From NCBI RefSeq assembly GCF_002833405.1, contig NZ_CP025135.1, positions 1,345,501-1,409,500 of the forward strand: a DNA stretch of 64,000 nt. Direction: 5' to 3'. The notes below the pieces were generated by a model. That model was not told where the DNA came from. It ran no database searches and saw only the letters and a program-made list of their open reading frames with translations. Positions within the stretch are counted from its first letter, which is position 1. Every line of letters starts with the position of its first letter. Below, piece after piece: positions 13,112 to 45,056 of this stretch. The position numbers were made by a program, and so were the translations under genes. This DNA comes from Planococcus sp. MB-3u-03 (lineage in GTDB: Bacteria; Bacillota; Bacilli; Bacillales_A; Planococcaceae).

Positions 13112-13161
13112 ATATATCGAATTAAAATATAAGTATGACTTATTTAATTGGGGACAAATAC

Positions 13162-14181
13162 ATGACAGTTTCGATTGCAATTAACGGGTTTGGCCGCATC
13201 GGCCGTATGGTTTTCAGACAAGCAGTTTTGATGGATGACGTGACAATTTCGGCGGTCAACGCCGGTTATCCGGCAGAAACACTTGCTCACTTGATTAAGT
13301 ATGACACAAATCACGGTACCTTCTCCGGTGAAGTGAAAGCGGAAGAAAATGCGTTGGTTGTAAACGGAAAGCGTATTCAATTGGTTAACGAGCGCGATCC
13401 ATTGAAACTCCCATGGGGGGAAATGGGCGTCGATATCGTCATCGAAGCGACAGGCAAGTTCAACTCGCGCGATAAAGCTGCGCTTCATTTGGATGCGGGA
13501 GCGAAGAAAGTCATCTTGACTGCTCCTGGTAAAAATGAAGACATCACGATCGTGATGGGTGTCAATGATGATAAATTGGATGTCGACAAACATCACATCA
13601 TCTCCAACGCCAGCTGCACGACGAATTGCTTGGCGCCTGTCGCTAAAGTGCTGAATGATGCATTCGGCATCGAAAACGGCTTGATGACAACGGTTCATGC
13701 GTATACCAATGACCAAAAGAATTTGGATAACCCGCATAAGGATCTTCGCCGCGCACGCGCTTGTGGACAGTCGATTATTCCGACTTCAACGGGGGCTGCC
13801 AAAGCTTTGTCGCTCGTTCTTCCTGAATTGGAAGGGAAATTGCATGGCCTAGCGCTTCGTGTCCCGACGCCAAATGTGTCGCTCGTCGACCTTGTCGTTG
13901 ATGTCCAGCAGGATGTGACGGTAGAAGACGTCAATCGTGCATTCACGGATGCATCGGAAGGCGCGCTTGCAGGCATTCTCGATTTGACGATGGAGCCGCT
14001 TGTGTCGATCGACTTCAATACGAACCCAAGTTCTGCAATCGTTGACGGCTTGACTACCATTGTCATGGGCGACCGCAAAGTGAAAGTGCTCGCTTGGTAC
14101 GATAACGAATGGGGCTACTCGGCCCGCGTTGTTGACTTAATGAAAAAGGTAGCCAATTCTATGGCTGTCGCTTCAAAATAA
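13162..14181 (+). CDS. gapB: Gluconeogenic NADP-type glyceraldehyde-3-phosphate dehydrogenase
   Basis: Interconverts glyceraldehyde-3-phosphate and 1,3-bisphosphoglycerate, in the GapB type mainly in the gluconeogenic direction with NADP. 339 residues; ATG 13162 follows GGGGAC (13150-13155), while an in-frame ATG at 13135 lacks an SD. The Rossmann motif INGFGRIGRM is at 7-16 and catalytic Cys152 lies in SNASCTTNC. The position that is Asp in NAD-using GapA (AVND) is Ala here (AVNAGYPA, about residue 34), which supports NADP use. The neighbour is speD as in B. subtilis gapB-speD, but here a terminator and a new promoter separate them. A CcpN site covers the promoter. Confidence 0.93.
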   Translation: MTVSIAINGFGRIGRMVFRQAVLMDDVTISAVNAGYPAETLAHLIKYDTNHGTFSGEVKAEENALVVNGKRIQLVNERDPLKLPWGEMGVDIVIEATGKFNSRDKAALHLDAGAKKVILTAPGKNEDITIVMGVNDDKLDVDKHHIISNASCTTNCLAPVAKVLNDAFGIENGLMTTVHAYTNDQKNLDNPHKDLRRARACGQSIIPTSTGAAKALSLVLPELEGKLHGLALRVPTPNVSLVDLVVDVQQDVTVEDVNRAFTDASEGALAGILDLTMEPLVSIDFNTNPSSAIVDGLTTIVMGDRKVKVLAWYDNEWGYSARVVDLMKKVANSMAVASK

Positions 14182-14272: not shown

Positions 14273-14301
14273 TTGCATTTCGAAAACATTCATCATATAC
14301 T
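14273..14301 (+). promoter_or_regulatory. speD promoter
   Basis: TTGCAT (14273-14278), a 17-base spacer, and TATACT (14296-14301). Transcription would start near 14308, giving a leader of about 185 bases before speD. Confidence 0.75.
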
Positions 14302-14308
14302 ATGAATC

Positions 14309-14493
14309 GTAGCCAAAAACGGCTACCACTTCTCAATTCTATTTATTATGTAGAGCAAGGAATTAGGAGCGTATATTATTATTCTTATGACTGCTTAAAG
14401 GGTTAGGACCTCTCTGGACTAACTTTCCCCCGTGGTAGTCAACTTTGAATATTTTGCGCAAAACCAAAATGTTATCAAAGGGGGAAACGAACC
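14309..14493 (+). ncRNA. Structured speD leader able to sequester its Shine-Dalgarno
   Basis: The leader opens with a hairpin GTAGCC (14309-14314) / GGCTAC (14321-14326). A second hairpin pairs GTTAG (14402-14406) with CTAAC (14419-14423). Immediately after it, TTTCCCCC (14424-14431) is perfectly complementary to GGGGGAAA (14480-14487), which contains the speD ribosome-binding site nine bases before the ATG. The second hairpin and this 8-bp long-range helix could form or exclude each other with a third partner, as in translational riboswitches. The ligand could be a polyamine or S-adenosylmethionine, but this is speculation. I recognise no named RNA family. Confidence 0.5.
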
Positions 14494-14877
14494 ATGGAAA
14501 CTATGGGACGTCACGTAATCGCAGAACTTTGGCAGTGTGATTTTGACAAATTAAACGATATGGATTATATCGAAAAGACTTTTGTTGATGCAGCACTCAA
14601 ATCAGGTGCGGAAATCCGCGAAGTCGCTTTTCATAAATTTGCACCACAGGGTGTCAGCGGCGTAGTCATCATTTCGGAATCACACCTGACTATCCACAGC
14701 TTCCCGGAACACGGGTACGCGAGTGTCGATGTGTATACTTGCGGTGATCTTGATCCAACAATTGCAGCTGATTACATTGCACAAGCTTTGGATTCAAAAC
14801 AAAGCGAAGTAACTGAAGTGCCACGCGGCATGGGACCAGTCGGCGCCGGAGCGACAAAAGTGTCACTAACGGTGTAA
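14494..14877 (+). CDS. speD: S-adenosylmethionine decarboxylase proenzyme
   Basis: Makes decarboxylated SAM, the aminopropyl donor for spermidine. 127 residues, the short bacterial class. The self-cleavage site is Glu62-Ser63 in [16 protein letters not shown]; Ser63 becomes the pyruvoyl group. The proton-donor block YTCGDLDP is also present. SD GGGGG (14480-14484) lies nine bases upstream of ATG 14494 and is the segment that can pair with the leader. No spermidine synthase gene is in the window. It has its own promoter and terminator. Confidence 0.95.
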
Positions 14878-14901: not shown

Positions 14902-14931
14902 AAGCAGAGGAGAAAATCCTCTGCTTTTTCT
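14902..14931 (+). terminator. Terminator after speD
   Basis: AAGCAGAGGA (14902-14911) pairs with TCCTCTGCTT (14918-14927), followed by TTT. Confidence 0.85.
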
Positions 14932-14998
14932 AATGTTTGGGGAATTTTTTTGTTATACTGTTACTACCAGATAGAGAATTTTCGGGGAGATGTCTACC

Positions 14999-15475
14999 AT
15001 GAAATGTCCAGCTTGCCAGCATAACGGCACCCGCGTAGTAGATTCGCGGCCAATAGATGAAATGAAATCAATCCGCAGGCGTCGTGAATGTGAAGCATGC
15101 GGCTATCGCTTCACCACGTTCGAGAAGGTGGAGGAGATGCCGCTGATCGTCGTGAAAAAAGATGGATCCCGTGAAGAATTCAGCCGCGAGAAAGTGTTGC
15201 GCGGCTTGATTCGCGCGTGTGAAAAACGCCCAGTCTCGCTCGACATGCTTGAAGGGGTCGTTTTCGATATCGAAAAAGAACTTCGCCGGAGCGGAAATCC
15301 TGAAGTGAAATCGGAAGAAGTCGGAGAACTGGTCATGAACCGGTTAGCGGATATCGATGAAGTGGCCTATGTCCGCTTCGCATCCGTCTATCGCCAGTTC
15401 AAAGACATTACGGTCTTCATCGATGAACTCAAGGATCTGCTTGACCGCAATCCCGGTGACAAGGACAGCAAATAA
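14999..15475 (+). CDS. nrdR: Transcriptional repressor NrdR
   Basis: Zinc-finger/ATP-cone repressor of ribonucleotide reductase genes. 158 residues. The start is set at ATG 14999 ([18 protein letters not shown]) because the earlier in-frame ATG at 14990 touches its SD (GGGGAG, 14984-14989). The zinc ribbon has CPAC and CEACGYR, and the ATP-cone starts at about residue 46 with [23 protein letters not shown] extended -10 region is seen near 14951. It heads nrdR-dnaB-dnaI, the same arrangement as in B. subtilis. Confidence 0.93.
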
Positions 15476-26847: not shown

Positions 26848-27099
26848 GAAATAGCAAAAGCGTTGACCGGGAAAAGTACCTTGTTCCCCTGCATCCTAGG
26901 AAGTCCGCCCTCGACTGAAAGCGCGGATATGCAGGGCCATCGGAAGTTCACCCCGCGAGCTGCTAGACGGGGACCGGCCGTGTGCCGTAAAGTCTGGCCG
27001 GTGATGAGCCGTTATTCAATGAAGTGATCGCATGCGTGCGATAACTAGGGTGGTACCGCGAATCAATGCCTCGTCCCTTTTTGGGGGCGGGGCTTTTTT
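26848..27099 (+). ncRNA. T-box leader of pheST with terminator
   Basis: Stem I contains AAAAGTACC (AGTA motif) near 26875, CTGAAAG near 26920 and the specifier TTC (Phe) at 26947-26949 in GAAGTTCACC. The T-box AGGGTGGTACCGCG is at 27047-27060; its TGGT predicts an A discriminator base, right for tRNA-Phe. The terminator GCCTCGTCCC/GGGGGCGGGGC (27068-27093) is followed by TTTTTT. Confidence 0.94.
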
Positions 27100-42253: not shown

Positions 42254-42440
42254 CTGGAGATGGAGCGAAAGGGGCCGACTCCTGCGGAAAAAGTGGGTTT
42301 GAGAGACCCCGGAATGAGCGTAGCGAATGAGGAGGCTCGATGCCCACTCCAATCACGGGCAGTGTAAAGCGCGACGTCCTGTCGCATACACTGCATGACT
42401 CGCATCCTGCGAGCCTAAAGCGTGCCCCTGTAGCGGAATC
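42254..42440 (+). repeat. REP-like intergenic repeat between etfA and trxA
   Basis: GC-rich noncoding stretch with motifs of a repeat common in Bacillales (from memory): GGGGCCGACTCCTGCGG, GAGAGACCCCGGAATGAGCG, GAATGAGGAGGCTCGATGCC and a closing AAAGCGTGCCCCTGTAGCGG. The ends GGGGC/GCCCC are inverted. About 65 bases (42352-42417) split the usual ending and contain their own inverted pieces (CAGTGTA/TACACTG). Downstream a 16-base direct repeat AACTACATCAAATCCA occurs twice with a 19-base period (about 42460-42495). Confidence 0.65.
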
Positions 42441-44805: not shown

Positions 44806-45056
44806 TTGTAAAAAGTGATGATAGAGGAGCGGACGTCAATAGTAAGCATTCCGAGATTTGCAGAATCTGTGAAGGATGCCAAAAGGGACGCTCGCCGAAG
44901 TTTACGGCGCACTGCTTGCGCGTATGCTGGTCCTGCATTTAAGAGATGCAGGGCTGTCAGAGTTTGACTCTGGAGGGCTATCTCACATGGACGTTTGAAA
45001 TCGTACATGAGAAGAGAGGTAGCTTGCCGGGCAATCGGCGAGTTGCCTCTTTTTTA
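44806..45056 (+). ncRNA. Lysine riboswitch (L box) with terminator
   Basis: Typical L-box elements in order: AGTGATGATAGAGGAGCG near 44815-44832, ATAGTAAGCA, GGATGCCAAAAGGGACGC near 44870-44893, a GC hairpin CGCCGAAGTTTACGGCG, GCATTT/GATGC, and GGAGGGCTATCTCACAT near 44972. The terminator AGAGGTAGCTTGCCG (45014-45028) pairs with CGGCGAGTTGCCTCT (45036-45050) and T6 follows. Lysine binding should cause premature termination before lysC. Confidence 0.92.

Follow-up and report, generated by a model that had tools for sequence, protein, structure and literature searches.

The leader of speD in Planococcus sp. MB-3u-03 carries a conserved RNA element (14388-14441, + strand; positions are those of the window, the whole 64,000-nucleotide stretch of DNA that was analysed), in which two helices, P1 and P2, frame a nearly invariant core. 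A run of five C residues within this core is retained together with a complementary run of five G residues in the Shine-Dalgarno (SD) sequence of speD, and the element is found directly upstream of speD in every model-found locus that was inspected. Judged from these sequence comparisons, the speD leader is probably an undescribed class of cis-regulatory RNA, namely a translational OFF riboswitch that is dedicated to speD and that would sense a product of the pathway.

The speD locus and the layout of its leader

The regulated gene, speD, encodes an S-adenosylmethionine decarboxylase proenzyme (14494-14877, + strand, with the ATG at 14494 and a match of 137 bits to PF02675), and it is located between two frames that we name by family as gapB (13135-14181), the upstream neighbour, and nrdR (14990-15475). 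An intrinsic terminator (14902-14926, + strand) directly follows the gene and precedes nrdR, so that speD is probably monocistronic. A promoter of the form TTGCAT-17-TATACT is predicted from the sequence, with the -35 box at 14273-14278 and the -10 box at 14296-14301 (+ strand), and had been overlooked by a simple scanner because its -35 box is weak; transcription would start near 14308, and the anti-SD sequence would therefore be contained in the transcript. The initial annotation had considered that a promoter might remove the anti-SD from the transcript, which the predicted promoter (14273-14301), lying upstream of it, would not do. In 76 of 81 loci (the window and 80 named loci) a permissive promoter pattern precedes the core, as compared to the 2.9 expected from mononucleotide shuffles. 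The terminator scan lists no terminator on the + strand between 14309 and 14493, such as a riboswitch that attenuates transcription would require.

The leader had been described in the initial annotation as a 5' hairpin, a second hairpin, and an eight-base sequence complementary to the SD, and on direct reading all of these parts, and the SD itself, are present. The second hairpin (GTTAG..CTAAC, 14402-14423) falls within P2, whose strands are GGGUUAG (14400-14406) and CUAACUU (14419-14425), both on the + strand. P2 is in turn enclosed by P1, formed by UGACUGC (14388-14394, + strand) and GUAGUCA (14435-14441, + strand), and between the P1 strands lies the nearly invariant core UUAAAGGGUUAGGACCUCnnnGGACUAACUUUCCCCCGUG (14395-14434, + strand), about 40 bases that end in CCCCCGUGG. 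The anti-SD UUUCCCCC (14424-14431, + strand) includes CCCCC (14427-14431), the part that is general among the leaders, and its partner is the speD SD GGGGGAAA (14480-14487, + strand). As had been claimed, TTTCCCCC (14424-14431) is perfectly complementary to the SD-containing GGGGGAAA (14480-14487); it occurs as a single copy in the 171-base leader, and when the leader was shuffled 20000 times with its dinucleotides preserved, 45 of the shuffles contained it. A further hairpin in the linker, UUUGA/UCAAA (14444-14448 and 14475-14479, + strand), brings the SD near the core. Folding of the 232 bases from 14309 to 14540 gave a z of -2.4 with respect to shuffles, 3 of 200 shuffles being equally good.

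The 5' hairpin (GUAGCC/GGCUAC, 14309-14326, + strand) does exist in the window, with a z of -4.1, but it lies outside the conserved core; an obvious 5' hairpin is absent from the leaders of many relatives, and as a component of the core it was rejected, the region having a z below -1.5 in 29% of 76 leaders and a mean of -0.98. Hairpins of differing sequence were observed at the same position at the leader starts of L062, L064 and L083 (z of -3.9, -4.8 and -4.7), and part of the group may have conserved the structure of a 5' stem.

Conservation, distribution and complementarity to the ribosome-binding site

A fuzzy search of reference genome contigs recognised the core, CUUAAAGGGUUAGGACCUCnnnGGACUAACUUUCCCCCGUGG, upstream of speD in 80 of 80 named loci (the loci L001-L030, among which those on the minus strand are unoriented, are left out of all counts). 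The mean identity to the commonest base is 0.98 in the core, as against 0.43 in the upstream and 0.49 in the downstream flank, among 70 distinct leaders. The P1 helix covaries strongly: among 45 distinct sequences (alignment A1, the distinct 60-mers of the 81 loci) six of the seven P1 pairs have changed on both sides, with a covariation score that exceeded those of all 500 shuffles and of all slid versions of the helix. In a wider set of 86 hand-chosen rows, 85 of them distinct (A3), six of seven pairs were again changed on both sides and 84.5% of the P1 cells were paired, the outermost pair being weak; here the covariation score again exceeded all shuffles, and two coarser measures were equalled by 1 and 10 of the 500, it being understood that the shuffle tests ignore the relatedness of the sequences. 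P2 scarcely varies near Planococcus and has compensatory changes in more distant lineages. Among the 143 distinct cores (from 201 loci, less L236 and L308), its third pair is UA in 120, UG in 16, GC in 4 and mismatched in 3, and its fourth is AU in 96, GU in 32 and GC in 15. None of the 86 rows of the wider alignment departs from CCCC or from the GGG that forms the base of P2.

A number of lineage-specific embellishments were observed. In L178 (1498-1609, - strand) the P2 tip holds about 50 extra bases, an indication that the element can do without it in its usual form. In distant lineages there seems to be an outer helix around P1, of the form AGGAxCC/GGUCCU or UAGGAUC/GAUCCUA; a rough text test found AGGA at this position in 55 of 103 loci, 47 of the 55 with a matching stretch. 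L280 and L295-L309, which belong to the class of genome G926, have an additional hairpin in the linker that joins P1 to the SD; its arms vary, its loop resembles CUGAAAGG or UUGAGAGG, and it may be a second switch module. The linker of L075 (Jeotgalibacillus) contains CUUAC, complementary to the P1 3' strand GUAAG and thus a possible competitor of P1.

The covariance model R1 matched 190 of 398 Bacilli genomes and 87 of 145 genera, with one match per genome among the matches listed; in the order to which the window belongs, 78 of 200 genomes were matched. Within the family, SpeD matches above 200 bits fall in seven genera, and these are the same seven that are listed with the motif. A search across the phylum with model R2 matched 11 of 398 genomes, three of them outside the Bacilli. 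Two of these three represent further classes of Bacillota, and there model R3 matched 4 of 46 genomes in one class and 16 of 151 in the other (R3 is slightly weakened by the misalignment of L280 at P2 in alignment A4, a hand-chosen selection of 43 rows). All genome counts refer to sampled species under strict filters. The initial annotation had proposed an alignment of speD leaders from the Planococcaceae, and conservation extends far beyond that family, with covariation in P1 and P2, though the covariation that had been sought in the CCCCC/GGGGG helix is absent, as both of its sides are fixed.

The association with speD is a close one. The gene lies directly downstream in all 126 of the inspected model-found loci (100, 20 and 6, the 100 having been picked from the 142 loci L112-L253), and no second gene under the motif was seen among these 126; since the reading frame that follows speD differs between lineages, speD is the sole common target seen. 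A SpeD-family match was found in 292 of 398 Bacilli genomes, the motif in 190, and both in 189, a cross-table which presumes that the two samples hold the same 398 genomes, as the genus totals suggest. In the one genome with the motif and without a SpeD match (G438), the match lies 11 bases from a contig edge. This leaves 103 of the 292 SpeD-bearing genomes without an R1 match; of 30 such genomes re-tested with R3, six were positive (E <= 0.01), so that R1 undercounts diverged forms. Some speD genes do without the motif altogether, as a search of 39 motif-less loci with R3 returned no match at E up to 1. A shortened motif with a much reduced P2 was observed before speD in L315 (1501-1553, + strand; R3 E of 0.0078, nothing with R1), and the counts given here probably understate the spread of the motif. 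No copy was found in viral contigs, which were searched with one exact pattern.

The C-run and the G-run are retained jointly. Five or more consecutive C in the core, and five or more consecutive G in the last 45 bases before speD, are present in 180 of 180 loci counted (80 of them named and 100 model-found, among which species may overlap), and by eye the same is seen in 20 further model-found loci. Together with the conservation of the element and the covariation of P1 and P2, this supports the original suggestion that the leader has the layout of a switch that hides the ribosome-binding site. Among 164 distinct leaders the two runs lie 29-70 bases apart, the linker varying between lineages. 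The eight-base helix first described survives in its CCCCC:GGGGG part; the UUU:AAA extension was rejected as a general feature, as many leaders retain C5:G5 alone. With both sides fixed, the evidence for the C5:G5 helix is one of co-retention and not of covariation.

The starts of the neighbouring genes served as controls: in a 25-base window, a run of at least five G precedes speD in 80 of the 80 named loci (L031-L110), as compared to 1 of 79 usable nrdR starts and 12 of 60 usable gapB starts of the same loci. A G-rich SD also occurs where the motif is absent. Among 15 motif-less speD genes (51-56% identity), GGGGG was found in L260, L261 and L264, which belong to one genus, the remaining 12 having SDs such as AAGGAG or GGGAG; a six-G run occurs in one (L317) of seven further motif-less speD genes.

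In nested folding of the 164 leaders, the C-run pairs with the SD with a median probability of 0.91 as against 0.02 for P1, the near-absence of P1 being due to the fact that it crosses the C:G helix. As P1 is clearly under selection and yet crosses C5:G5, the RNA is either a pseudoknot or a two-state switch; it is plausible that P1 and the C:G helix coexist as a pseudoknot.

Known RNA systems and the motif-less speD loci

Sequestration of the SD is a recurrent strategy among riboswitches. In SAM-II and preQ1-II the junction or loop of a receptor hairpin pairs with the downstream SD in a pseudoknot, and the SMK box (SAM-III), which senses SAM metabolism and precedes metK, pairs an anti-SD with the SD in its off form. 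The speD element differs from the SAM-II/preQ1-II type in its gene and core sequence, no Rfam family of this type being matched at E up to 10 by the window leader or at E up to 1 by seven diverged loci, and from the SMK box in its target, speD in place of metK, and likewise by the lack of an Rfam match. With respect to H-type pseudoknots, the speD element has a P1 that covaries and a C:G helix that is retained, and the two cross.

The window leader had no match in Rfam 15 at the gathering score, and at a relaxed threshold only a chance-level snoRNA match (E of 3.4) on the opposite strand; seven diverged motif loci had no match at E up to 1. The SAM-I aptamer fold (RF00162) was found neither in the speD leader nor in these seven loci, and the T-box (RF00230) had no match in the speD leader, the sole T-box of the window being a leader at 26854-27081 (+ strand, 105 bits). 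Other RNAs matched in the window are a lysine riboswitch (44814-44988, + strand, 112 bits) and a Bacillaceae-1 RNA (42351-42413, + strand, 43.9 bits with respect to a cut-off of 35).

Within the open papers searched, the speD motif, RNA, leader or riboswitch is touched upon by a single study, in which co-immunoprecipitation with Hfq in B. subtilis yielded a 79-base peak (2966841-2966919) entered as 'Unknown or speD leader region' among the uncharacterised leaders that it tabulates; several of these leaders had patterns resembling those of known riboswitches (PMC3574147). Gene and position are those of the element described here, so the peak is likely to be the speD motif, whereas the accessible text of that study proposes no structure, motif or ligand (PMC3574147). 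The fragments of the core that were looked for do not occur in the open-access papers searched, so that a description in preprints, subscription papers or supplements is possible, and the terms polyamine, spermidine and decarboxylase are absent from the main texts, as accessible, of two genome surveys of structured RNAs (PMC11109978, PMC6429828). Of six open papers with a phrase on polyamine riboswitches, the only one that is by title a study of such an RNA concerns spermidine-sensing variants of the SAM-I riboswitch (PMC10853860). Like the speD motif, these variants belong to Gram-positive bacteria and precede spermidine-synthesis genes that include speD, and in the accessible text they are described as genetic off switches (PMC10853860). 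The variant derives from the SAM-I aptamer, whereas the speD motif is unrelated to it in sequence and fold; as far as tested, the speD element is a new class within the SD-sequestering riboswitches.

The motif-less loci offer a contrast within the same family. Among 12 of them (L281-L292), in all of which speD is preceded by a reading frame some 500 residues long, seven have an upstream SAM-I-like match of 38-45 bits (cut-off 44.4); the 15 SAM-I matches in the genome of the window itself score 66-100 bits, and the three SAM-I-like leaders examined in sequence depart from the SAM-I consensus. Pfam was applied to three of the loci (L282, L289 and L285), and in each the frame before speD is an Orn/Lys/Arg decarboxylase and the gene preceding that is the SAM synthetase metK, giving an operon metK-decarboxylase-speD; the SAM-I-like leader is present in L282 and L289 and absent in L285. 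Spermidine-sensing SAM-I variants occur, according to the accessible text of the study cited above, in Sporosarcina, Lysinibacillus and Viridibacillus among others, and include a metK leader from Oceanobacillus (PMC10853860). By resemblance, the SAM-I-like leaders among L281-L292 are candidates for further variants of this kind; it is also possible that they are weak ordinary SAM-I switches, because metK follows them in the loci tested. In an indirect manner, the SAM-I-like leaders on motif-less loci support a small pathway metabolite as the ligand of the speD motif, as does the scarcely changing RNA core in view of the divergence of SpeD.

Proposed mechanism and competing explanations

In silico, the speD leader combines the features generally asked of a riboswitch: a conserved, structured receptor with covarying helices in the 5' leader, an expression platform linked to it, and association with a gene of a single pathway. 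We infer that a small molecule is bound, that it is a product of the pathway, and that binding corresponds to the OFF state. During synthesis of the RNA, P1 and P2 would form a small receptor that holds the invariant junction, with UUAAA on one side and UUU-CCCCC-GUG on the other. The ligand would settle in this junction, and the CCCCC of the junction would capture the GGGGG of the SD across the linker of variable length, forming a pseudoknot in which the ribosome site is hidden. A pathway product, spermidine as the first choice and decarboxylated SAM as the second, would stabilise the closed form, and without the ligand the ribosome would win the SD. Product feedback is favoured as it is the simplest logic at the committed step of spermidine synthesis. 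To our knowledge, there is no riboswitch known for decarboxylated SAM.

An unlikely reading is a riboswitch of the opposite sense, in which the ligand, perhaps the substrate SAM, is bound by P1 and P2 and CCCCC is held in the junction, where its partner could be the GGG that is invariant at the P2 base, so that the SD is freed when the ligand is present and covered by the C-run when it is not. The invariance of GGG and CCCC in the 86-row alignment and the retained G-run of the SD speak for such a switch, as do the crossing of P1 with the C:G helix and an SD-covered form that is the default in nested folding, and induction of a decarboxylase by its substrate is physiologically sensible. However, the GGG is already paired in P2, the linker before the SD is free to vary in length, as a switch of the pseudoknot type would lead one to expect, and the nearest RNA regulator of the pathway that is experimentally known in Bacillota is, in the accessible text of its description, a spermidine OFF switch (PMC10853860).

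It is also conceivable, if rather improbable, that P1 and P2 are bound by a protein that keeps the SD closed, be it a conserved RNA-binding protein or SpeD itself. Extreme conservation of loop sequence would also fit a protein site, and the restriction of the element to speD in the inspected loci would suit autoregulation. SpeD, however, falls to about 40% identity among the inspected motif loci, while the RNA core is almost constant, a contrast that points to a small ligand of unchanging structure rather than to SpeD itself. A regulator other than SpeD would probably act on several genes, in conflict with the one match per genome among the matches listed. There is very little to recommend a constitutive damper or RNA thermometer, whereby the C-run would lower translation of speD with no ligand involved: the C:G helix has the strength to form unaided, but a damper would require no covariation in P1 and P2 and no nearly invariant junction, and the element has been retained across many families. 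Finally, a leader peptide or ribosome-stalling attenuator, with the core as a short reading frame, was rejected as scarcely credible, for although many Bacillaceae cores can be read as one open frame with a UAG end within P1, single-base indels inside the core (L068, L084, L171, L216 and L238) break the frame, L178 has a long insert, a conserved start codon is not seen, and positions that could be silent vary no more than the others.

The product-sensing OFF riboswitch for speD can be extended to a broader statement, which we hold to be about as likely as not: that the motif constitutes a widespread new riboswitch class with a fold of its own, which senses spermidine or decarboxylated SAM, hides the SD in a pseudoknot, occurs in three or more classes of Bacillota and controls speD only. 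If true, it would be among the commoner unclaimed riboswitch candidates in Bacillota, given its presence in 190 of 398 sampled Bacilli genomes. The speD element also represents a concrete candidate, with one target gene, few candidate ligands and a construct only some 110 bases long. The contrast with the SAM-I-like leaders suggests that within one family two unrelated RNAs control the same step, and the proposed switch would, if true, explain how the motif-bearing bacteria restrain spermidine.
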